Shown piece by piece: positions 4,371 to 27,091 of a stretch of DNA of 64,000 nt. How positions within the stretch are numbered: position 1 is the stretch's first letter; each line of letters starts with the position of its first letter. Under the pieces are notes generated by a model. It was not told where the DNA came from and ran no database searches. It saw nothing but the letters and a program-made list of their open reading frames with translations. A program made the position numbers and the translations under genes. This stretch comes from Halosegnis marinus (lineage in GTDB: Archaea; Halobacteriota; Halobacteria; Halobacteriales; Haloarculaceae): NCBI RefSeq assembly GCF_029338355.1, contig NZ_CP119802.1, positions 744,001-808,000 on the forward strand, in the 5' to 3' direction.

Positions 4371-4436
4371 ATGACACGCCTGCTGCCGGGCGGGGAGCGC
4401 AGTCACGAGCCGATCGCGACCGCGGGGGACCGATGA
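4371..4436 (+). CDS. Possible 21-residue leader ORF overlapping the moxR start
   Basis: An ATG at 4371 opens a 21-codon frame whose TGA (4434-4436) overlaps the ATG of the MoxR gene as ATGA. A CCTTACG at 4339-4345 lies about 28 bases before this ATG, the spacing of a haloarchaeal TATA element to a leaderless start, so the transcript may begin at the mini-ORF and not at moxR. The peptide (MTRLLPGGERSHEP...) has no recognisable family. A similar arrangement precedes the second transglutaminase island. It could be a coupled leader peptide or chance; low confidence. Confidence 0.3.
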   Translation: MTRLLPGGERSHEPIATAGDR

Positions 4437-5386
4437 GCGACGCCGAGAACACGGCGGCCGGCGAGGAGGCCGTCCGGGAGGCCGGGACGACGGCGCGCCG
4501 CGTCGTCGCCAACATCGGCGAGGTCATCGTCGGCAACGAGGAGACCATCGAGCACCTCGTCGTCGCGCTGCTCGGCCGCGGGCACGTCCTGCTGGAGGAC
4601 GTGCCGGGCGTCGGCAAGACGATGCTCGCGCGCGCGCTCGCCACCTCCTTCGAGTGCGACTTCAAGCGCGTGCAGTTCACGCCCGACCTGCTCCCCTCCG
4701 ACATCACCGGGGTCAACGTCTTCGACCAGGCGAGCCGGGAGTTCGAGTTCCGGCGCGGCCCGGTGTTCGCGAACGTCGTCCTCGCCGACGAGATAAACCG
4801 CGCGCCGCCGAAGACGCAGTCCGCCCTCCTCGAGGCGATGGAGGAGGAGACCGTGACCGTGGACGGGGACACCCGGCCCGTCCCGGACCCGTTCTTCGTC
4901 GTGGCGACGCAGAACAGCGTCGAGCGCGACCGCACCTACGAGCTCCCGGCCGCGGAGCTCGACCGCTTCGGCATGAAGCTCTCGCTCGGCTACCCGAACG
5001 AGGAGGAGGAGCGGGAGGTGCTCGGCCGCGTCGTCGGGAACCACCCCATCGAGGCGCTCGACCCCGTGGCGACGACCGCGGAACTGCGCGAGGCGCGCGC
5101 CGCCACCGCCGAGGTGACGGTGAGCGAGGCGGTCCGCGCGTACGTCACGCGGCTCGCACGCTACACCCGCGAGAACGCCCAGCTGGGCGTCTCGCCCCGA
5201 GGGTCGGTCGCGCTGTCGCGGGCCGCACAGGGCCGGGCCGTCCTGGAGGGCCGCGACTACGTCGTCCCCGACGACGTCCAGCAGGAGGCGGTGCCGGCGC
5301 TCGCCCACCGGGTCCGCGTGGGGCGCGGCGAGGGGAGCGCGCGCGAACTCGTCCGCGAGGCGCTCGACGCCGTCGCCGTGGAGTGA
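4433..5386 (+). CDS. MoxR-family AAA+ ATPase (island 1)
   Basis: This 317-residue AAA+ ATPase of the MoxR family acts as a chaperone for assembling or activating partner proteins, typically those with DUF58/von Willebrand-like domains. Walker A is VPGVGKT at residues 57-63 and Walker B is LADEIN at 117-122, followed by the family signature RAPPKTQSALLEAMEE. The sensor strand VATQNSVE follows, with LGVSPRGS in the C-terminal lid. It starts an operon with DUF58 and TgpA-type transglutaminase genes; the next gene's ATG overlaps its stop by one base. This trio is a recurrent prokaryotic module thought to act on cell-surface or periplasmic substrates, which remain unknown. Confidence 0.93.
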   Translation: MSDAENTAAGEEAVREAGTTARRVVANIGEVIVGNEETIEHLVVALLGRGHVLLEDVPGVGKTMLARALATSFECDFKRVQFTPDLLPSDITGVNVFDQASREFEFRRGPVFANVVLADEINRAPPKTQSALLEAMEEETVTVDGDTRPVPDPFFVVATQNSVERDRTYELPAAELDRFGMKLSLGYPNEEEEREVLGRVVGNHPIEALDPVATTAELREARAATAEVTVSEAVRAYVTRLARYTRENAQLGVSPRGSVALSRAAQGRAVLEGRDYVVPDDVQQEAVPALAHRVRVGRGEGSARELVREALDAVAVE

Positions 5387-6357
5387 TGCGCCCGACACGA
5401 CGCGGCTGGGGCGCGGTCGCCGTCGTCGCGCTCGCCGTCGGCTTCGCCGCCCAGTCCGGCCCCCGGTCGCTCAACGCCGTCGCCGCCCCCGCGCTGCTGG
5501 CGCTCGCGTTCGGGTACGTCACCCTCCACCGGCGCGACGCGCCGACCGTCGAGCGGCGCAAGCCCGCGCCCGGCTTCCCGGGCGAGACGCGGGACGTGAT
5601 CCTCCGGGTCGACGCCGCGGGGCGCGCGAGCGTGAGCGACGCCAGCGACGGCGGTGTCGCGCGCGTCGCCGACACCGCGAACGGCTACCGCGTCGAACTG
5701 ACCGACCGCGGCGAGTGGACGCTCGGCCCCGCGACCGTCGCCGAGACGGACGCGTTCGGCCTCCTGCGCCGGCGGACGGTCGCGGGCGGCGAGACCGAGG
5801 CGCTCGTCTACCCGCCCGTCGAGCCGCTCGCGCCGAACCGCGCGTTCCGCGGGCTGGTCGAGCGGGCCGGGTCGCCCGACCGCGACGCGTTCGACGCGCT
5901 CCGCGAGTACGTCCCCGGGGACCCGCTCCGCGACGTCCACTGGAAGACCTCCGCGAAGCGGCCGCCCGGCGACCTCGTCGTCGCGGAGTTCGCCACGCAG
6001 GACGAGGGCGGCGTCACCGTCGTCGCGGAATCGACGCCCGGGCGGGCGGACGCGATGGCCGCCGCGGCCGCGAGCGTCGCCGTCCACCTGCTCGAAGCCG
6101 ACCTCTCGGTCGCCGTGGTCGCGCCGAACGGCCGCGTCGAGCGCGGGCGCGGGGACGACCACCGCGACGAGACGCTCGAACTGCTCGCCCGCACCCACGC
6201 GGGCGACGTGAACACTGCCGTCGAGGCCGACGTGCGCGTCCGGGCCGACCGCGACGGCGTGACCGTCCGCACCGAGGGCCGCGAGTTCCCCTTCTCGGAC
6301 CTGCTCGGCGACGCCGACCCGGTCGAGGACGCCCGCGCGGGGGTGGCGCTCGCGTGA
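5386..6357 (+). CDS. DUF58 domain membrane protein (island 1)
   Basis: This 323-residue protein has two N-terminal hydrophobic helices (about residues 8-40), a beta-rich middle, and the DUF58 signature LREYVPGDPLRDVHWKTSAK at 172-191. A von Willebrand-A-like part follows, where conserved residues are poorly kept. DUF58 proteins are the usual partner of MoxR ATPases. The start codon overlaps the moxR stop (TGATG) and its own stop overlaps the transglutaminase GTG, so the three are translationally coupled. The compact length (most relatives are around 300-430) looks complete. Function is inferred from context. Confidence 0.88.
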   Translation: MRPTRRGWGAVAVVALAVGFAAQSGPRSLNAVAAPALLALAFGYVTLHRRDAPTVERRKPAPGFPGETRDVILRVDAAGRASVSDASDGGVARVADTANGYRVELTDRGEWTLGPATVAETDAFGLLRRRTVAGGETEALVYPPVEPLAPNRAFRGLVERAGSPDRDAFDALREYVPGDPLRDVHWKTSAKRPPGDLVVAEFATQDEGGVTVVAESTPGRADAMAAAAASVAVHLLEADLSVAVVAPNGRVERGRGDDHRDETLELLARTHAGDVNTAVEADVRVRADRDGVTVRTEGREFPFSDLLGDADPVEDARAGVALA

Positions 6358-8558
6358 GCACCGTCACGCGGCGGCTCCCGGCCGTGAACGTCGATACCGC
6401 CCGCGTGCTCGCGACCGCCTCGGTCGGCGTCACGATGGTGGCGTACCTGACCGTCCTCCGGTACATCGTCACCGTCGCGGGCGAGCCGCCGCTGTTCTAC
6501 GGCGCGGTCGCGGCGTCGCTCGCGGCCGCGGCCCTGCTCGCGGCGCTCGTCCGCCCGCGGACGGCCGCGCTCGTGACCGCCGGCCTGCTCGCCGCGGGCA
6601 CGTACTACTACGTCGTCACGCTGCCGCCGTCGTTCGACCTCGCCGAGGCGCTCGGGCCGATGGTCGCGGACGCGTGGTCGATGCTGTCGGGCCTCTCCAT
6701 CCTGCGTATCATCAACGCCGGGACGTGGGCGCTCGCCATCACGCCCGCGCCGACGCTGTTCGCCGCCTACCTCGCCTTCCGCCGGCACTACCTCGCCGGG
6801 GCGGCCGTCGCGGGCGGGACCCTCGGCCTGTTCGTCCTGACGGGCAACGCCGACGCCGCGACGACGCTCATCGGCGCGGTCGGGGTCGCGGGCGCGGCCG
6901 GCTTCGGCGACCTCGCGGGCGGCACGACCGAGGTCGCGGTGGACGAGGGGCGCCGGGACGTGCTGTTCGGGCTCGGCGGCATCGTCGCCGTCGCGAGCGT
7001 CGTCGACGTGGTGCCGGAGGAACTCGTCGGCGAGGGCGGGGGCGGGTTCGGCGGGCTCGGCGGCGGCGGGACGACCGAGGCGAACCTCCTCGGCAGCGCC
7101 GACAGCGTCGAACTCGCCGGCTCCATCTCGCTGTCGCCGGACGTCCGCTTCGCCGTCGAGGCGGACGAGCCGGGCTACTGGCGCGTCGGCGGCTTCGACC
7201 GCTTCACCGGCGACGGCTGGGTCCGCACGGGACAGGCCCGGGCGTACGACGGCGACCGGCTGGCGACGCCGCCCGGCCCGGACCGCGCCGTCGAGCAGAC
7301 GTACACGATGGAGGGCCGGATGGGCAACATGCCGGCGCTGTGGAAGCCGCGGAGCGTCGAGCGCAGCGACACCGGCGCGGACGTGCTCCCCGACGGGAGC
7401 CTCCGCCCGGTCCGCGCGTTCCGCGAGGACGAGTCGTACACCGTCGTCTCGCGCGTGCCGACGGCCGTTCCGACGGAGCTCCGGTCGGCCGGCACCGACT
7501 ACCCCGAGGACGTGGTCGACCGCTACACCGCCCTCCCCGGGAACCTCCCGGACCGGGTCGAGGCGCGGACGAGCCGCATCACGGGCAACGCGACGAACCC
7601 CTACGACACCGCCCGCGTCGTCGAGCAGTGGCTCTCGAACAACCGCGGCTACTCGCTCGACGTCGACCGCCCATCGGGCAACGTCGCCGACGCGTTCCTC
7701 TTCGAGATGGAGGAGGGGTACTGCACCTACTTCGCGACGACGATGGCCGTGATGCTCCGCACGCAGGGGATTCCGGCGCGCTTCGCGGTCGGCTACACCG
7801 CGGGCGAGCGGGTCGCCGCGGACCGCTGGGTCGCCCGCGGGCTCAACGCCCACGCGTGGGTGGAGGTGTTCTTCCCCGAACAGGGGTGGATACGGTTCGA
7901 CCCGACGCCCGCCGGCCCCCGCGTCGCGGCCGAGCAGGAGCGCATCGACGACGCCCGGTCGGAGGGCCTCGACTCCGTGGACACGAACGAGACGGGGCCG
8001 GGCGAGTGGACGCCGACGCCCGAGCCGGGCACCGACTCCGACCCGAACGAGATCACGGCCGTCTCGCCGAACTCGACGCCGAGCCTGCGCCAGCTCGCCG
8101 AGGGGGCCAACGAGACGGCCACCGTCCCCGGCGCGGACGGCTCCGGCGGGGGCGGGACGGCCGGCGGGGGCTTCGAGCTCCCGGAGATACCGCCGCGCGA
8201 ACAGCTCGCGCTCGGGGCCGTCGTCGCGCTCGGCGCGGCCGCCGGCGCGCGCAAGTCCGGGCTGACCGGGCGGGCCTACCGGGCGTTCTGGCTCCGGTAC
8301 CAGCCGCGCTCCGACCCCGCGGCGGACACGCGCGGCGCCTACGAGCGTATCGAGTACGTGCTCTCGCGACAGGGCCGCCCCCGCGCCGAGGGGGAGACCG
8401 TGCGCCAGTACGCCGAGGCCGTGGGCGACCGCCGGGCGCGCCGGGCCGCCCGGCTCTACGAGCAGGCCGTGTACGGCGGCGGTGTCTCGGAGGCCGAGGC
8501 CGACGAGGCCGTCTCGCTCGCCGATTCGGTCGTCTCGAACCGCGGCGGCCCCGCCTGA
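6354..8558 (+). CDS. TgpA-type transmembrane transglutaminase-like protein (island 1)
   Basis: This 734-residue membrane protein starts at a GTG overlapping the DUF58 stop. Order of parts: five to six N-terminal helices (to about residue 215, TgpA N-terminal domain), a Gly-rich linker, an extracellular beta region, and a transglutaminase core with Cys 457 (EEGYCTYFATTMAVMLR), His 500 (NAHAWVEVFF) and Asp 516 (WIRFDPTP). A low-complexity Thr/Pro/Gly stalk, one last helix near residue 625 and a cytoplasmic DUF4129-like tail (RRAARLYEQAVYGGG) complete it. The triad is intact, so it is probably an active transglutaminase or protease. It presumably acts outside the membrane on surface proteins, with MoxR and DUF58 as partners. 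Confidence 0.9.
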   Translation: MSTVTRRLPAVNVDTARVLATASVGVTMVAYLTVLRYIVTVAGEPPLFYGAVAASLAAAALLAALVRPRTAALVTAGLLAAGTYYYVVTLPPSFDLAEALGPMVADAWSMLSGLSILRIINAGTWALAITPAPTLFAAYLAFRRHYLAGAAVAGGTLGLFVLTGNADAATTLIGAVGVAGAAGFGDLAGGTTEVAVDEGRRDVLFGLGGIVAVASVVDVVPEELVGEGGGGFGGLGGGGTTEANLLGSADSVELAGSISLSPDVRFAVEADEPGYWRVGGFDRFTGDGWVRTGQARAYDGDRLATPPGPDRAVEQTYTMEGRMGNMPALWKPRSVERSDTGADVLPDGSLRPVRAFREDESYTVVSRVPTAVPTELRSAGTDYPEDVVDRYTALPGNLPDRVEARTSRITGNATNPYDTARVVEQWLSNNRGYSLDVDRPSGNVADAFLFEMEEGYCTYFATTMAVMLRTQGIPARFAVGYTAGERVAADRWVARGLNAHAWVEVFFPEQGWIRFDPTPAGPRVAAEQERIDDARSEGLDSVDTNETGPGEWTPTPEPGTDSDPNEITAVSPNSTPSLRQLAEGANETATVPGADGSGGGGTAGGGFELPEIPPREQLALGAVVALGAAAGARKSGLTGRAYRAFWLRYQPRSDPAADTRGAYERIEYVLSRQGRPRAEGETVRQYAEAVGDRRARRAARLYEQAVYGGGVSEAEADEAVSLADSVVSNRGGPA

Positions 8559-17389: not shown

Positions 17390-18409
17390 TCAGTACGGTC
17401 GGTCCTCGGCGTACGCCTTCAGTTCCTCGTTGAACGTGTCGCCGTCGGCACCGTGGTGGCGTCGGCGGTGACAGTTCGGGCACAGCGCGACGACGTTTCC
17501 CGGGTCGTCCGCGCCCCCGTCAGCCCGCCGGTGGAGGTGGTGGACCTCCAGATACGGCTCGCCGTCCCCGTCGCGGAAGGGGGCCGGCTCGTCACATCCC
17601 TCACACACCCCGTCGGCGTAGGCGCGGGCGAACTCGCGGACCGACTCGGATCGAGCGTAGCTAGTGCTCCGCGTGGTCGTCGGCCCGCCGGTCGTTTCGC
17701 CACCCGTGGCGTGCTCGTACAGGTCCGTCAGGTCCGCGTCGTCGAACTCCGGCGCGTCGTCGGGAACCCCCGACGCGCCCGCGGGGACGAGTTCGAAGCG
17801 AACGGCCTCGCGTCGGTCGCCGTTCGCGTCGTCCATCTCCTGCCGGAAGTGGTCGCCGTACTCGTACTCGCCGACGAACGTCACCTCGCCGCCGTCGGCG
17901 TTCTCGAACAGGTAGAGCCGTCGCCCGTCCTCGGCGTGATCGCGCACCACGCGGTTGCCGTGCGTCATCTCCATGTCGCCGACCTGTCCCTCCCCGGTGT
18001 AGACGAAGGTGTCCCCGCGGAAGCCGTCGTCGTAGCCGTACTGCTCGCCCGCCGCGCCGTAGAAGAGAAACACGAACGGGTAGTCGGCCGAGGGGGCGAT
18101 GCCGGACTGGCGCATCCCGCCGTACGCGTCGTGGAGTCGGCTCCGGGTGTACGTCGTGCCGCGCTCGAACGGCGCGGCGAGCTCCGTGATCGCGTACTCG
18201 CCGTCGCCGCGGAACTCGATCTCGTCGCGGTCGCGGAGTTCCTGAAGCGTCCGGCTTAGGCTCTGTTCCGGCGTCTCCGAGCCGGGAAACCGCGCTTCGA
18301 GGTCGTCCAACGACTGTCGGAGCAGTTCGCCCCTCGTCACGGTGTCGCGGCCGGTTCGCGCCCGGAAGCGCGATAGTTCGGCACGGACGGCCTCCCGCCA
18401 GACACTCAT
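17390..18409 (-). CDS. Winged-helix/SRA-like/HNH protein, candidate modification-dependent endonuclease
   Basis: This 339-residue protein has three parts. Residues 1-75 form a helical winged-helix-like domain (VTRGELLRQSLDDLEARFPG; LQELRDRDEIEFRGDGEYAI). Residues 100-210 resemble the SRA-like module of ScoMcrA-type Type IV enzymes: GYDDGFRGDTFVYTGEGQVG, then DMEMTHGNRVVRDH and LYLFENADGGEVTFVGEY. Residues 265-320 are an HNH nuclease: C269/C272, EVHH at 288-291, Asn 305 and CPNCHRRRHH at 310-319. The combination suggests cleavage of modified foreign DNA. CTAAGATC (coding strand), about 26 bases before the ATG, supports this start. No methyltransferase gene lies nearby. The enzymatic role is inference. 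Confidence 0.82.
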   Translation of the reverse strand: MSVWREAVRAELSRFRARTGRDTVTRGELLRQSLDDLEARFPGSETPEQSLSRTLQELRDRDEIEFRGDGEYAITELAAPFERGTTYTRSRLHDAYGGMRQSGIAPSADYPFVFLFYGAAGEQYGYDDGFRGDTFVYTGEGQVGDMEMTHGNRVVRDHAEDGRRLYLFENADGGEVTFVGEYEYGDHFRQEMDDANGDRREAVRFELVPAGASGVPDDAPEFDDADLTDLYEHATGGETTGGPTTTRSTSYARSESVREFARAYADGVCEGCDEPAPFRDGDGEPYLEVHHLHRRADGGADDPGNVVALCPNCHRRRHHGADGDTFNEELKAYAEDRPY

Positions 18410-18463
18410 CGTCGGTCCGTGTCCCGGTTCGATCTTAGCTCTTCGGCCGCCGCGCACGCAAAG

Positions 18464-18472
18464 TTTCTTATC
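18464..18472 (+). promoter_or_regulatory. TATA-like element of transglutaminase island 2
   Basis: TTTCTTATC lies about 30 bases before the GTG at 18498, and not at leaderless distance from the transglutaminase GTG at 18554. The transcript may therefore start at a short leader ORF. A separate element for the HNH gene (near 18432-18438, opposite strand) lies just to the left. Confidence 0.5.
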
Positions 18473-18497
18473 GCAGTCGCGACACCACCCGGTAACT

Positions 18498-18557
18498 GTG
18501 ACCGAGTCCGGGGGGCGGTGTGACGGGGGGACGGCGGCCGCGCCGGGCGACCCGTGA
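18498..18557 (+). CDS. Possible 19-residue leader ORF overlapping the transglutaminase start
   Basis: A GTG at 18498, about 30 bases downstream of the TATA-like element, opens a 19-codon frame. Its TGA (18555-18557) overlaps the GTG of the transglutaminase gene as GTGA. The peptide (VTESGGRCDGG...) has no recognisable family. The layout mirrors the 21-codon ORF before the MoxR gene of island 1. It is either a coupled leader peptide or chance in GC-rich DNA. Confidence 0.3.
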   Translation: MTESGGRCDGGTAAAPGDP

Positions 18558-21500
18558 GCGAGGAGTCGCCGTTCGGGTCGACCGGCGGGCGCGAGTACGG
18601 GCGCGTCCTCCTGACCGTCGCCTGTATCGTCGCGCTCGTCGTCGCCGCGGCGATGGTGCCGCTGCTGTCGAGCGGCGGCCTCGGGGAGTCGCCCGCCGGC
18701 GGCCTCGTGCCGATTCCGGGGTTCGCGGGCGACGCCGAAGGTGCACGGGGGGCTCCCGGCTCGACCGGAAGCGGCGGGGCGAGCGGCCCGACGAGCGGGA
18801 GCGGCCTCGGGGCGCTCAACCCCGGCGCGTCCACGGGCGTCGGGGGGTCGCTCGCGGAGGAGAACGCGACGAACCCCTTCCGGACGCTCGGTAGCGAGAC
18901 GCACTTCGTCGTGGAGGCGTCGCGGACGACGTACTGGCGCACCGGCGCGTACGCCGAGTACACCGGCGAGGGCTGGGAGCGCATCGGCGACGCCGAGCCG
19001 TACGACCCGCCGATAGAGGAGCCGGGGCTCCCCGGCAGGGAACTGGAGTACCGGGTGACGCTCCGGCAGTCGGCGAGCGCGGTGCCGACGGCGTGGCGAC
19101 CCCGGAGCGTCTCGTTCGTCGCGCGCGACCCCGACCTCACGGTGCGGTCGGGCGCGGTTCGCGCCGAGCGCCGACTCCAGGCCGGCACGACGTTCGCGGG
19201 CGTTAGCGTCGTCCCCGATCGCCGGCCCGAGGTGTTGCGGAGCGCGGGGCGCGACTACCCCGACGCGATCGCCGAGCGCTACACCCAACTGCCGGAGGAT
19301 ACCTCCGACCGACTCGGCGCGTTCACCGCGAACCTCACGTCGAACGCCTCGTCGCCGTACGAGACGGCTGTCGCGATAGAGGCGTGGCTCGAACGGAACA
19401 AGGAATACTCGCTGAACGTCGAGTCCCCGCCGAACGACGACGTCGCCTCGCAGTTCGTCCTCGAGATGGACGAGGGCTACTGCGAGTACTTCGCCACGTC
19501 CATGACCGCGATGCTCCGGACGCAGGACATCCCCGCACGCTACGTCGTCGGCTACACCGGCGGCGAGCGCACCGGGGAGAACGAGTACACGGTTCGGGGG
19601 ATGAACGCCCACGCGTGGGTCGAGGTGTACTTCCCCGACGTCGGCTGGGTCCGCTTCGACCCGACACCCGCGAGCGAACGGATAGCGGCCGAGTCCGCGG
19701 CGCTCGGCGGGGGGAGCGGCGACGGGAGCGGCGGTGAAGGCGGCGACGGCGGCCCCACACCGACGCCCGGTCTCGGTGGGGCCGGTGACGTCACGGCGAC
19801 GGCGACACCCGGCGGAACCGCGACACCGGACGGCGGCGGTGACGGAACGGCAACACCGGACGGCGGTGACGGAACGACGACACCCGACAACGGCGGTGAC
19901 GGAACGGCAACGCCGGACGGCAGCGGTGACGGAACCGCGACACCCGACAACGGCGGTGACAGCGACGGGACGACCGGTGAACTCGGGGCACTCAACCCCG
20001 GCGCGTCCACGGACGTCGGCGGGTCGCTCGCGGAGGAGAACGCGACGAACCCGTTCCAGACGCTCGGCGGGGATACGCACTTCGTCGTCGAGGCGTCGCG
20101 GACGACGTACTGGCGCACCGGCGCGTACGGCGGATACACCGGCGAGGGCTGGGAACAGGTCGAAGGGGCCGAGCCGTACGACCCGCCGCTGGACCGGCCG
20201 GCGCGCGCCGGCGAGGAACTGGAGTACCGGGTCACCCTCCGACAGTCAACCACGGGCGTACCGACCGCGTGGCGACCCCGGAGCGTCTCGTTCGTCGCGC
20301 GCGACCCCGACCTCACGGTGCGGTCGGGCGCGGTTCGCGCCGAACAGCAACTCCCCTCGGGGACGACGTTCACGGGCGTCAGCGTCGTCCCGGAGAGCCG
20401 CCCAGAGGTGTTGCGGAGCGCCGGGCGCGACTACCCCGACGCGGTCGCCGAGCGCTACACTCAGCTACCCGACGACACGCGCGAGCGGCTGGGCGCGTTC
20501 ACCGCGAACCTCACGGCCGACGCCGACTCGCCGTACGAGACGGCTGTCGCGATAGAGGCGTGGCTCGAACGGAACAAGGAGTACTCGCTGAACGTCGAAT
20601 CCCCGCCGAGCGACGACGTCGCCTCGCAGTTCGTCCTCGACATGGAGGCCGGCTACTGCGAGTACTTCGCCACGTCCATGACCGCGATGCTCCGGACGCA
20701 GGACATCCCCGCACGCTACGTCGTCGGCTACACCGGCGGGGAAGCGACGGGGGACGGGGAGTACACCGTCCGGGGGATGAACGCCCACGCGTGGGTCGAG
20801 GTGTACTTCCCCGACGTCGGCTGGGTCCGCTTCGACCCGACGCCCGCGAGCGAACGACTGGCGGCCGAGTCCGCGGCGCTCGCCGAAGAAACCGACGGCA
20901 CCGCGACCCCGACGCCGACGGACGCGCCGGACGACGGAACGAGTACGCCGACACCGACACCCACCCCGACGCCGACACCCACCCCGACACCCACGCCCAC
21001 ACCGACCGACACGCCCGACGACGACACGAGCACGCCGACGCCGACAGCGACCCCGACACCCACACCCACGCCGACACCCACGCCCCGTCCGCCGGTCGAG
21101 GTGTCGCTCAATCGGAGCGCGGTGCCGGGAACGACGGTCACCGTGACCGTGACGCGCGGCGGGAGTCCCGTGCCGGACGCGCGCGTCCTGTTCGACGGCG
21201 AGCCGGTCGGGCGGACCGACGCCGACGGCGAGGTGGTGGCGGAGGTGCCGTACACCCGGACGCTGGAGATAACGGTCGTCGTGGACGGCGAGCGGGTGGC
21301 CGCGGAGTCGATACCGCCGCCCGACGGCGACCGGCAGCGGTCGGTGCCGCCGCCCCGGTTCGCACAGGAGAACACGACGACGACGGTGGCGGTGAACGGG
21401 ACGCTCGCGGTCGCCGTCTCCGGGGAGGAGCGCACGACGGCCGAGGTGGTGTTCACGGCGACGATAGAGGGCGTTCCCGTCCGGAACGCGACCGTCTCGC

Positions 21501-22576
21501 GCAACGGCACGGCGGTGGCGACGACCGGAACGAACGGTCGCGCGGCGGTGACGCTGCCCGCGGAACCCGGCACCGTCACGTACACCGTCCGGCGCGGGGA
21601 GTTCGCGGCGAACGCGACGCTCGACCTGCCGCGGCTCCGGGTCGAGGCCGAGCCGGTGTGGCCGCTCGCGCTGCCCTTCTCGCCGGTCCGGACGACGGCG
21701 CGACTCGGCGACGACCCGGCCGCGGGCGTCCCCGTCACGGTCGGCGGCGCGACGGTCCGGACCGGTCCCGACGGCAACGCCACGCTGACGCTCCCGCTCG
21801 GGAGCGAGGCGACGGCCGTCGCCGAGCGGTACGGCCAGCGCGCGACCGTCACGGTGACGAACCTCTACCGGAACACCGCGCTCGTCGCCGCCGGCGCGGC
21901 CCTCGTCGTCGCCGGCCTCGCCGTCGCCGCCCGCCGCACCGGGACGGGCCCGCGGAGCCTGCTCGCGCGCCTCCGGGCCGCCCTCGGGTGGGTCGTCCGG
22001 ACCGTCGCGGGCGTCGTCGTCGGCATCGGCACGGCGCTTGCGGCGGCGTGGCGGCGCGTCGTCGCCGCGGCGCGCGACCTCCGGGCGGCGCTCGCCGACC
22101 TGCTCGAACGCCGGCGGACCCTTCCCGAACTGCTCGCCGCGTTCGTCGCCCGTCTGCGCGCGTGGTTCGTCGGCCTCCGCACCCGCGCCGAGGACCGCTA
22201 CGCGGCCGTGACGGGCGACGGGGCCGCGACGGCCGCGGGCGCCGCCGAACCGACCCCCGAGAGCCAACTCACCCTGCGGGAGGTGTGGGGCCGCTTCGTC
22301 GCGCTGACGACCGTTCGCCGGCCCGAGACCCGCACGCCCGGCGAGATCGCGACGCACGCCGTGGAGACCGACGGCCTCCCCGCCGACCACGTCCGCACGC
22401 TCCGGGACGCCTTCCGGGCCGTGGAGTACGGGTCGCTCGACCCGGACGAGCACCTCGCGCGGGCCGACGAGGCGCTCGCCGCGCTGGAGGCCGCGCTCGC
22501 CGAACCGGACGGCGAGGACCGCGAGGACCGCGACGGCGCGCCCGACGGCCCCGCGCCCGCGGGGGGTGACGACTGA
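18554..22576 (+). CDS. Giant membrane protein with two tandem transglutaminase modules (island 2)
   Basis: This encodes 1340 residues from a GTG. A signal-anchor helix (about 17-39) leads to an extracellular part with two nearly identical transglutaminase modules, residues 85-384 and 477-776, offset by exactly 392 residues. Triads are Cys 310/His 353/Asp 369 and Cys 702/His 745/Asp 761, all intact (GYCEYFATSM; NAHAWVEVYF; VRFDPTP). A TPDGG-repeat linker separates them. A Thr-Pro stalk (about 795-845), two Ig/carboxypeptidase-regulatory-like beta domains and a last helix near 1118-1135 follow, ending in a cytoplasmic DUF4129-like tail. Two catalytic modules on one chain is rare in this family. 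It heads an operon with overlapping genes. Confidence 0.9.
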   Translation: MSEESPFGSTGGREYGRVLLTVACIVALVVAAAMVPLLSSGGLGESPAGGLVPIPGFAGDAEGARGAPGSTGSGGASGPTSGSGLGALNPGASTGVGGSLAEENATNPFRTLGSETHFVVEASRTTYWRTGAYAEYTGEGWERIGDAEPYDPPIEEPGLPGRELEYRVTLRQSASAVPTAWRPRSVSFVARDPDLTVRSGAVRAERRLQAGTTFAGVSVVPDRRPEVLRSAGRDYPDAIAERYTQLPEDTSDRLGAFTANLTSNASSPYETAVAIEAWLERNKEYSLNVESPPNDDVASQFVLEMDEGYCEYFATSMTAMLRTQDIPARYVVGYTGGERTGENEYTVRGMNAHAWVEVYFPDVGWVRFDPTPASERIAAESAALGGGSGDGSGGEGGDGGPTPTPGLGGAGDVTATATPGGTATPDGGGDGTATPDGGDGTTTPDNGGDGTATPDGSGDGTATPDNGGDSDGTTGELGALNPGASTDVGGSLAEENATNPFQTLGGDTHFVVEASRTTYWRTGAYGGYTGEGWEQVEGAEPYDPPLDRPARAGEELEYRVTLRQSTTGVPTAWRPRSVSFVARDPDLTVRSGAVRAEQQLPSGTTFTGVSVVPESRPEVLRSAGRDYPDAVAERYTQLPDDTRERLGAFTANLTADADSPYETAVAIEAWLERNKEYSLNVESPPSDDVASQFVLDMEAGYCEYFATSMTAMLRTQDIPARYVVGYTGGEATGDGEYTVRGMNAHAWVEVYFPDVGWVRFDPTPASERLAAESAALAEETDGTATPTPTDAPDDGTSTPTPTPTPTPTPTPTPTPTPTDTPDDDTSTPTPTATPTPTPTPTPTPRPPVEVSLNRSAVPGTTVTVTVTRGGSPVPDARVLFDGEPVGRTDADGEVVAEVPYTRTLEITVVVDGERVAAESIPPPDGDRQRSVPPPRFAQENTTTTVAVNGTLAVAVSGEERTTAEVVFTATIEGVPVRNATVSRNGTAVATTGTNGRAAVTLPAEPGTVTYTVRRGEFAANATLDLPRLRVEAEPVWPLALPFSPVRTTARLGDDPAAGVPVTVGGATVRTGPDGNATLTLPLGSEATAVAERYGQRATVTVTNLYRNTALVAAGAALVVAGLAVAARRTGTGPRSLLARLRAALGWVVRTVAGVVVGIGTALAAAWRRVVAAARDLRAALADLLERRRTLPELLAAFVARLRAWFVGLRTRAEDRYAAVTGDGAATAAGAAEPTPESQLTLREVWGRFVALTTVRRPETRTPGEIATHAVETDGLPADHVRTLRDAFRAVEYGSLDPDEHLARADEALAALEAALAEPDGEDREDRDGAPDGPAPAGGDD
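18806..19705 (+). repeat. Intragenic duplication, transglutaminase module copy 1
   Basis: This 900-base unit encodes the first module and recurs in frame at 19982-20881, a shift of 1176 bases. Long stretches are identical at DNA level, including third codon positions, for example from about 19093 to 19168 and 20269 to 20344. That points to recent duplication or continuing gene conversion. Differences cluster near the module edges and in the loop after Gly-Gly before the catalytic His. Confidence 0.9.
19789..19980 (+). repeat. TPDGG/TPDNGG-encoding linker repeats
   Basis: The linker between the two transglutaminase modules consists of imperfect units of about 24-33 bases. They encode TATPDGGGDG, TTTPDNGGDG and TATPDGSGDG and similar, at least five in a row. 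It is coding, in frame, and likely forms a flexible, glycosylatable extracellular spacer. Copy number would be expected to vary between strains. Confidence 0.8.
19982..20881 (+). repeat. Intragenic duplication, transglutaminase module copy 2
   Basis: This is the second 900-base copy, encoding residues 477-776 of the same protein. All three catalytic residues and flanking motifs are kept. Compared with copy 1 the changes are mostly conservative (for example DMEAGYC versus EMDEGYC around the nucleophile), so both modules appear to be under selection for function. Confidence 0.9.
20936..21085 (+). repeat. Thr-Pro microsatellite-like stalk coding region
   Basis: Runs of ACCCCGACG/ACACCC-type hexamers encode (TP)n stretches broken by TDTPDDDTS. 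This is the extracellular stalk of the double transglutaminase. It is rich in Thr and therefore a likely O-glycosylation region. Such hexamer tracts are prone to slippage in multiples of six bases, which would keep the frame. Confidence 0.8.
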
Positions 22577-23199
22577 TGGCCCTGAGCCGGTGGCAACAGG
22601 TCGTCGGGGGGCTCGTCGTCGCGGCGCTCGCCGGGACGGTCGTACTCGTCGCCCGCCCCGAACTCGCCGCGGCGCTCCCCACCGGGAGCGAGCTGGTCGA
22701 GGCGGCCGCGACCCTCGACCCGACGACCGTGGGCGTCGGGGCGGCGGTCGCGCTCGGCGCCCTGCTCGCGCTGCTGGTCGCGTTCACCCGGAGCGCCGCG
22801 ACCGACGACGACCGGTTCGACCGCCTGCGCGAGCGGCCGCCGGAGGCCGTCACCGCCGACGAGGCGACCAGGACCGGCTCGGGGTTCGACGAGGACCTCG
22901 ACAGGGCGGAGCGGGGCGTCGAACGGGGTATCGAGGCGACGCGCGACCGCCTCGCGGAACTGGCGGCGCGCGTCCACGCCGCGGAGACGGGCGACCCGGT
23001 GCCGGCGGCCCGCGAGGCCGTGACCGCCGGCGCGTGGACCGACGACCGGACCGCGGCCGCCTTCCTCGGCGGCCCGGAACTCACCTACTCGGTGGTTGCG
23101 CGGCTCCGGCTGTGGCTCGACCCCGAGACCGAGCGCCGCCGGCGGGTGGCCGCGACGGTCGCGGCCGTCCGCGAGCGCGCCGACGGGGGTGCGCCGTGA
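22576..23199 (+). CDS. Two-helix membrane protein of island 2 (DUF7269-like)
   Basis: This 207-residue protein has two N-terminal hydrophobic helices (VVGGLVVAALAGTVVLVA and GAAVALGALLALLVAF) and a cytoplasmic alpha-helical part with heptad-like Arg/Ala/Glu runs (DRAERGVERGIEATRDRLAEL). It resembles the haloarchaeal family I recall as DUF7269, seen in transglutaminase/DUF58 clusters; I could not verify that here. The ATG overlaps the preceding stop by one base, and its stop overlaps the following GTG by four. Function is unknown; it is likely a structural partner of the island. Confidence 0.72.
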   Translation: MALSRWQQVVGGLVVAALAGTVVLVARPELAAALPTGSELVEAAATLDPTTVGVGAAVALGALLALLVAFTRSAATDDDRFDRLRERPPEAVTADEATRTGSGFDEDLDRAERGVERGIEATRDRLAELAARVHAAETGDPVPAAREAVTAGAWTDDRTAAAFLGGPELTYSVVARLRLWLDPETERRRRVAATVAAVRERADGGAP

Positions 23200-24479
23200 C
23201 CCGCCGCGTGGCGCTCGCGTCGGTGCTACTGTTCGCCGGCGTCGGCGTCCTGTTCGCCTCGCCGACCGCGCTCGTCGCCGCCGTCGTCCCGCTCGCGTAC
23301 GTCGTCGCGGACGCCGCGAGCGCGGTGCCGGCCTCGCCCGCGATAGCCGTCGAGCGGTCGCTGTCGCCCGCCTCCCCGACACCCGGCGACCGCGTGACGG
23401 TGACGCTCTCGCTTTCGAACGAGGGGGAGAGCGCGCTCGCCGACGTGCGGGTCGTCGACGGCGTCCCCGACGCGCTCGCGGTGGTCGAGGGCTCCCCCCG
23501 GGCCGCGGTCGCGCTCCCGGTCGACGGGAGCGCCGAGGTGTCCTACGAGGTGGTCGCGAAGCGGGGCGACTTCGCGTTCGGCGACCCGACCGTGCGCCTG
23601 CGCCCGACCGTCGGCGACGACCCGGCGACGGCGACCCTGCCGGTCGCGGGCGCGACGGCGCTCGAATCGCGGGGGACGGCCGCGCCGCCCCGGCCGGAGG
23701 CCGCGCGCCTGCAGGCCGGCACGCTGACGACGGACCGGAGCGGGCAGGGCATCGAGTTCCGCTCCGTCCGCGAGTACCGCCACGGCGACGCGCTCTCGCG
23801 GCTGGACTGGCGGCGGCTGGCGAAGACGGGCGAACTCGCCACCGTCGAGTACCGCGAGGAGCACGCGCTGCGACTGCTCGTCCTCGTGGACGCGCGCCCG
23901 GAGACGCGGACCGTCCCCGAACCGGGCTACCCGACGGGCGGGGAGGCCGCGGCGTACGCCGGGCGGGTGCTGTACGACGCGCTCCGGAGCGGGGGCCACG
24001 TCGCGGGCGCGGCCGCCGTCGGCCTCCCGAACGGGTACCTCCCCGAGGGCCACGCCGGCGACGGGCTGGCGTGGGTGGACGACCGCGACCCGCGCGACCC
24101 GACCGCCGTCTTCGAGCGGGCCGAGGCCGCGGGTGCGGCCACCGACACGACGGCCCAGCGGGCGATACGCGACGACGCGGCGGTCGGGCGCGTACTCGGC
24201 CGCCTGCGCCCGAACACCCACGTCGTGTTCGTCACGCCGCTCGCGGACGACTGGCCGACGACGCTGGCCCGGCGGCTGACCGTCGCGGGCCACCCGCTCA
24301 CCGTCGTCAGTCCGGACGGCACCGGCGACTCGACGCCGGGCGGCGAGGTGGCGGCGCTCGAACGCCGCCTCCGCCTGCGCGCGGTGCGCCTGCTCGGGGC
24401 CGACACGGTGGACTGGGACCGCGACCGACCGCTGCGGGCCAGCCTCGAAACCTCGGTTCGCGAGGTGTTGAGCCGATGA
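23196..24479 (+). CDS. DUF58 domain membrane protein (island 2)
   Basis: This 427-residue protein from a GTG start has two N-terminal helices, an extracellular or periplasm-like CARDB/Ig-like beta domain (RVTVTLSLSNEGESALADV), then the DUF58 signature VREYRHGDALSRLDWRRLAK at 191-210. A von Willebrand-A-like fold follows, beginning LRLLVLVDARPETR. The DUF58 of island 1 is about 100 residues shorter and lacks the clear CARDB-like part. It overlaps both neighbours by 4 bases. Its presumed ATPase partner is the convergent MoxR gene at 26138. Confidence 0.88.
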   Translation: MTRRVALASVLLFAGVGVLFASPTALVAAVVPLAYVVADAASAVPASPAIAVERSLSPASPTPGDRVTVTLSLSNEGESALADVRVVDGVPDALAVVEGSPRAAVALPVDGSAEVSYEVVAKRGDFAFGDPTVRLRPTVGDDPATATLPVAGATALESRGTAAPPRPEAARLQAGTLTTDRSGQGIEFRSVREYRHGDALSRLDWRRLAKTGELATVEYREEHALRLLVLVDARPETRTVPEPGYPTGGEAAAYAGRVLYDALRSGGHVAGAAAVGLPNGYLPEGHAGDGLAWVDDRDPRDPTAVFERAEAAGAATDTTAQRAIRDDAAVGRVLGRLRPNTHVVFVTPLADDWPTTLARRLTVAGHPLTVVSPDGTGDSTPGGEVAALERRLRLRAVRLLGADTVDWDRDRPLRASLETSVREVLSR

Positions 24480-26137: not shown

Positions 26138-27091
26138 CTACTCGGCCCCGGGCGGGACGGTCACCCGGTCGAGGACCGCCTCGGCCACGTCGTGCGGGTC
26201 GACGTCGCCGACCGACGCCTCCGTGGTGAGGACGAGCCGGTGGGCGAACACCGGGCGGACGACCCGCTTCACGTCGTCCGGAACGGCGTAGTCGCGGCCC
26301 GCGAGGACCGCGGCGGCCCGGACCGCCTCGAACGTCCGCTGGATGCCGCGCGGCGAGACGCCGACGCGGACGCGGGAGTCCTCGCGGGTGGCGCGCGCGA
26401 GGTCCACGATGTAGTCGCGGAGCTTCCCCTCGACGTCGACCGTCTCGACGGCCGCCTGCATCCCCGAGACGGTGCCCTCGTCGAGCACGCGGCCGACCGA
26501 GGGCGCGGAGACGGTGCGGTCGGCCCGCAGGTCGAGCAGGCGGCGCTCGCCGGCCCGGTCCGGATAGCCCATCTCGGTCTTGAACATGAAGCGGTCGCGC
26601 TGGGCCTCCGGCAGCCGGAAGGTCCCCTCCTGCTCGACGGGGTTCTGCGTCGCGATGACGAAGAACGGGTCGGGCAGGTCGTACGTCTCGCGGTCCACCG
26701 TCACCTGTCCCTCCCCCATCGCTTCGAGGAGAGCCGCCTGCGTCTTCGGCGGCGCGCGGTTTATCTCGTCGGCGAGCACCACGTTCGCGAATATCGGCCC
26801 GCGCTGGAAGGTGAACCCCCCCGTGGACTCGTCGTAGATGGTCGAGCCGGTGATGTCGGCGGGCAGGAGGTCGGGCGTGAACTGGATACGGCGGAAGTCG
26901 AGGCCGAGCGCGTCGGCGAACGAGCGGGCCGTGAGCGTCTTGCCCGTCCCCGGCACGTCCTCCAGCAGCACGTGGCCGTCCGCGAGCACCCCCGCGAGGA
27001 CGGTTTCGAGGAACTCGTCGTCCGCGATGACTGCGCTCCCCACTTCCCCCAGTACCCGACCACACGCGTCGGTCGCGTCCGTGACCTTCAT
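26138..27091 (-). CDS. MoxR-family AAA+ ATPase (island 2)
   Basis: This 317-residue MoxR ATPase has Walker A PGTGKT at 47-52, a Walker B strand ending LADEINRAPPKTQAALLEAM, a sensor ATQNPVEQEGTFRLPEAQRDRF (the classical family sequence) and VGVSPRGIQRTFEAVRAAA in the lid. The sensor keeps the canonical NPxEQ, whereas the island 1 copy reads NSVERDRT. It is convergent with the four-gene operon and shares no promoter with it, so its supply is probably set separately. It likely works with the DUF58 protein of this island. Confidence 0.93.
   Translation of the reverse strand: MKVTDATDACGRVLGEVGSAVIADDEFLETVLAGVLADGHVLLEDVPGTGKTLTARSFADALGLDFRRIQFTPDLLPADITGSTIYDESTGGFTFQRGPIFANVVLADEINRAPPKTQAALLEAMGEGQVTVDRETYDLPDPFFVIATQNPVEQEGTFRLPEAQRDRFMFKTEMGYPDRAGERRLLDLRADRTVSAPSVGRVLDEGTVSGMQAAVETVDVEGKLRDYIVDLARATREDSRVRVGVSPRGIQRTFEAVRAAAVLAGRDYAVPDDVKRVVRPVFAHRLVLTTEASVGDVDPHDVAEAVLDRVTVPPGAE

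Follow-up and report, generated by a model that had tools for sequence, protein, structure and literature searches.

Organization of the locus

The gene considered here lies on the plus strand of the window (the whole 64,000-nt stretch of Halosegnis marinus DNA that was analysed), in a haloarchaeal genome of 2.81 Mb. It occupies positions 18554–22576, a reading frame of 1340 aa without an internal stop, and encodes two transglutaminase modules of 300 residues each, separated by one low-complexity linker and followed by another, and then three predicted Ig-like domains and a C-terminal region (Table 1). The N-terminal helix is marked by hydropathy values above 1.5 in windows that begin at residues 13–27. 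By predicted topology, both modules and the Ig-like domains should be extracellular. AlphaFold2 models the Ig-like region with a mean pLDDT of 92 and with strands throughout, and its Foldseek matches are for the most part arrays of Ig/FN3 domains, at low TM-scores over the whole length. An NCBIfam search found no match.

The linkers, a flexible stalk in a preliminary description of this DNA, are low in complexity and rich in TP or Gly. Each contains tandem repeats at the DNA level: about five 30-base copies at 19813–19960 in the first, and two 87-base, TP-coding copies at 20915–21085 in the second. On the minus strand, a long open frame (17390–20080) runs antisense into the double-module gene. 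The C-terminal part of this frame is HNH-type nuclease-like by eye; the remainder is probably a spurious high-GC extension.

Table 1. Features of the double-module gene and of its neighbours, as positions in the window.
Feature	Positions	Strand	Remarks
N-terminal part	18554..18805	+	One hydrophobic, probable transmembrane helix (about residues 13–45), then a Gly/Ser-rich stretch; from hydropathy; orthologue N-termini alike
Module 1, residues 85–384	18806..19705	+	Last third of TgpA_N, then Transglut_core; Cys310, His353, Asp369
Linker 1, residues 385–476	19706..19981	+	Gly/Asp/Thr/Pro-rich
Module 2, residues 477–776	19982..20881	+	Cys702, His745, Asp761; 86% identity to module 1
Linker 2, residues 777–844	20882..21085	+	Thr-Pro array
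Three predicted Ig-like beta-sandwich domains, about residues 846–1103	21086..21868	+	AlphaFold2, Foldseek
Second hydrophobic helix (about residues 1104–1129), then C-terminal region	21869..22576	+	Possible further hydrophobic stretch near 1140–1172
DUF7269 protein	22576..23199	+	Downstream neighbour; same order in orthologous loci
Open frame, 3' part a DUF58 protein	22566..24479	+	Gene start well inside the frame
MoxR-family AAA ATPase	26138..27091	-

The neighbourhood is of the MoxR–DUF58–transglutaminase kind: genes for a DUF58 protein and a MoxR ATPase are both near, the latter on the opposite strand. Orthologous loci, too, have DUF7269 and then DUF58 downstream. The bifidobacterial PFNA cluster, with its aaa-atp (MoxR), duf58 and tgm genes, likewise encodes a MoxR ATPase, a DUF58 protein and a transglutaminase-like membrane protein together (PMC8430577). 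It differs in gene order, and in having an additional kinase and an FN3 protein, for which no counterpart was identified beside the double-module gene.

The catalytic modules

Both modules match Transglut_core (PF01841) strongly, with 108.4 and 106.5 bits against a curated cut-off of 23, and their Cys-His-Asp triads align with that of TgpA. Across 47 sequences the Cys and His columns are invariant, and the Asp nearly so. For a profile built from the module together with its relatives, PDB 6g49, the periplasmic domain of Pseudomonas TgpA, is a match with E 1.9e-30 over positions 35–281 of 291. The same structure is the best PDB match in Foldseek (E 4.9e-20, TM 0.72–0.75) of the AlphaFold2 model of module 1, which has a pLDDT of 88.5 and a pTM of 0.90.

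The periplasmic domain of TgpA has transglutaminase activity in vitro (PMC3507681). In Pseudomonas aeruginosa, TgpA (PA2873; PDB 6g49, 6g4h) begins with bundled membrane helices (TgpA_N/DUF3488) and has one module, and its periplasmic domain can be aligned, triad included, with each of the two modules here. The organization of the double-module protein is different: a single N-terminal hydrophobic helix instead of the multi-helix bundle, two modules in place of the one per protein of the TgpA family, TP/Gly-rich linkers, and three Ig-like domains. Its best TgpA_N stretch covers profile positions 231–332 only.

Members of the transglutaminase-like superfamily also work as proteases. By inference, the double-module protein is likely a membrane-tethered, putative surface acyl-transferase or cysteine protease. 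The literature found reports no isopeptide crosslinks or substrates for these archaeal proteins.

Comparison of the two modules

Alignment places the modules exactly where the preliminary description had put them, one offset from the other by 392 codons, or 1176 nt. They are identical at 798 of 900 nt (88.7%) and at 258 of 300 aa. Homology between the copies has sharp limits at the module edges; the linkers and the outer flanks have no in-register homology. Where the two modules have the same residue and the codon is degenerate, the codon itself is the same in 212 of 248 cases, compared with the roughly 142 that the gene's own codon usage would predict, and codon sharing is thus far above chance. 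The earlier claims of identity at silent sites, and of a catalytic triad kept in both copies, are borne out. 'Near-identical', as the modules were called, is a little too strong; the copies have clearly diverged: 102 of the 900 bases differ, identity is patchy—75% to 100% across 60-base blocks—and silent and replacement differences, when counted, give a dS of 0.23 and a dN of 0.087.

Distribution and origin of the duplication

Of five further genomes in the genus, two carry a single-module orthologue, 64% identical, and three only a more distant transglutaminase, of about 45% identity. One of the single-module genomes (G002) appears to be that of Halosegnis rubeus, with the same protein at locus L005. 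This orthologue and those of Haloarcula vallismortis (L006) and Halorussus aquaticus (L007) have much in common with the double-module protein: the N-terminal helix, module, low-complexity linker, Ig-like region, second helix and C-terminal region, and the downstream DUF7269 and DUF58 genes. They have one module, however, where there are two here.

One TgpA-type module per protein had been taken to be the norm, and all orthologues examined, including those of the two same-genus genomes, conform to it. Two modules occur in this reading frame only, whether among the roughly 100 loci compared, among the matches listed from 146 genomes of the family, or among 392 genomes of the order (90 matched, at a strict threshold); the family and order surveys overlap. 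No other reading frame with two Transglut_core matches was found in 60 sampled genomes from the archaeal phylum; viral contigs, probed with a short exact DNA sequence from the catalytic stretch, had no match; and a literature search found no description of tandem transglutaminase or TgpA-type modules.

A maximum-likelihood tree built from 80 modules joins the two copies as sisters (100/99) and sets them beside the Halosegnis-type and A07HR60 orthologues. As sisters, the copies point to a duplication that, among the genomes searched, belongs to this lineage alone and that most simply followed the split of this lineage from those orthologues.

How the duplication came about can be sketched from the flanks. 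A Gly/Ser-coding stretch precedes the module in most orthologues, and a weak similarity (79% over 33 bases) links the beginning of linker 1 with the stretch ahead of module 1. Perhaps a single ancestral module was flanked by low-complexity, Gly/Ser-rich stretches, and unequal exchange between these might have duplicated it in frame. A long repeat shared by both breakpoints was considered as the cause and set aside, this short Gly/Ser-coding similarity being all that is present. In 33 of 56 orthologues the motif GSP[GDN]E comes directly after the module; here it is absent 3' of both modules (from 19706 and 20882 onward).

Divergence and selection

The dS of the module pair can be set beside those of species pairs: 0.29 for G002 and a second genome of the genus, G004, and 0.285 for Haloarcula japonica and H. 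sebkhae. By this measure, the copies are about as diverged as sister species of one genus. Third-position GC is about 93%, and silent distances consequently saturate early; allowing for a two-state limit lifts dS only to about 0.25.

Replacement changes behave differently. The dN of the module pair is about three times that of the species pairs (0.026–0.029), dN/dS is 0.38 rather than 0.09–0.10, and there are three to four times more replacements per silent change between modules than between species. Fisher tests of silent and replacement counts, modules versus species pairs, give P values of 4e-5 to 2e-4, which are approximate because the counts for species pairs had to be recovered from rounded rates and rough site numbers. 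The residues that differ between modules fall at sites that vary among orthologues (P 1e-7). In the tree, the branch to module 2 is longer than that to module 1 (0.13 versus 0.029); by outgroup counts, faster evolution of module 2 was not significant. As judged from these rates, dN/dS below 1 shows purifying selection between the copies, and the pattern fits relaxed constraint, or mild specialization, following duplication, with the catalytic residues kept.

Module 2 might be redundant, its constraint relaxed, and on its way to being lost with no gain of function. The roughly fourfold elevation of dN/dS over that of the species pairs is what such a copy would produce, the longer branch of module 2 points the same way, and no other lineage, among the family matches listed and the 392 order genomes, has retained such a duplication. 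But dN/dS is still well under 1, the triads and the invariant columns are intact in both modules, and the changes fall where orthologues vary. We regard decay as possible, though doubtful.

Gene conversion

The preliminary description had offered recent duplication or, alternatively, gene conversion keeping both copies alike. A fairly recent intragenic duplication stands. Conversion would mean that the duplication is older and that repeated exchange has held the copies together, and the distribution of silent differences gives this some encouragement. They are clustered (dispersion P 0.002–0.007 at two of three bin sizes), the longest run of silent-identical codons is 39 (P 0.04), and patches of 100% identity adjoin patches of 75%. 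At 20-codon bins, the clustering in the two-module gene is the highest of all pairs compared. Several pairs of single-module orthologues, however, in which no exchange between modules is possible, are clustered to a comparable degree, and with these controls we rejected conversion as a necessary explanation. No two-module genome other than this one occurs among the family matches listed or the 392 order genomes. The excess of replacements over silent changes, moreover, is the reverse of what homogenization produces, and so is evidence against its having been strong: at the protein level, the two copies have diverged faster than species pairs at like silent distance. Sustained conversion seems to us improbable. 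Occasional conversion may have acted on parts of the gene, atop a recent duplication.

Interpretation

We think it probable that this is a membrane-anchored, TgpA-related transglutaminase-like protein of haloarchaea, encoded in a MoxR/DUF58-type cluster, the extracellular catalytic module of which has been duplicated in frame in one lineage. The duplication would be about as old as a split between sister species, and both copies have retained their catalytic residues. Held between two membrane helices, the protein would probably act on proteins of the cell envelope. The extra module would then provide two tethered active sites, and with them more dose or more reach rather than new chemistry, and the second module, on its flexible linker, could bridge two substrates. 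The crosslinking or cutting of a repetitive surface substrate, suggested in the preliminary description, is conjectural. On the sequence evidence, the duplication looks real, but it is a small departure, in a single lineage, from a familiar enzyme.

A bolder proposal is that the tethered modules form a bivalent surface crosslinker or a two-site protease, that module 2 is evolving a different substrate preference, and that the protein represents an adaptive, two-site TgpA-type architecture rather than a transient duplication; we give this little credence. Assembly error is unlikely as the source of module 2, and a copy duplicated by misassembly, or a chimera from the joining of two strains, is scarcely credible here: estimated contamination is 3.69%, and a second genome with the two-module arrangement was not found, but 11% divergence (a plain repeat error would yield identical copies) and distinct linkers are at odds with it, the frame is unbroken over 1340 codons with normal codon-position GC in both modules, and a chimera would require sequence from a second species to have been joined in frame via a novel linker.

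The gene is a datable case of an enzyme module doubled within an archaeal gene, and the single-module orthologues of the same genus serve as natural controls. A natural two-site version of the enzyme could also be of use in deciding whether such proteins crosslink surface proteins or cut them.

Other transglutaminase genes

A second cluster lies about 10 kb upstream on the same strand (4433–8558). It holds MoxR and DUF58 genes and one for a transglutaminase-like protein with a single module, and this paralogue (open frame 5715–8558) has the full TgpA_N region, with a match at 13–331. In genome G004, about 500 kb separate the two transglutaminase genes, and in G002 the two lie on separate contigs.
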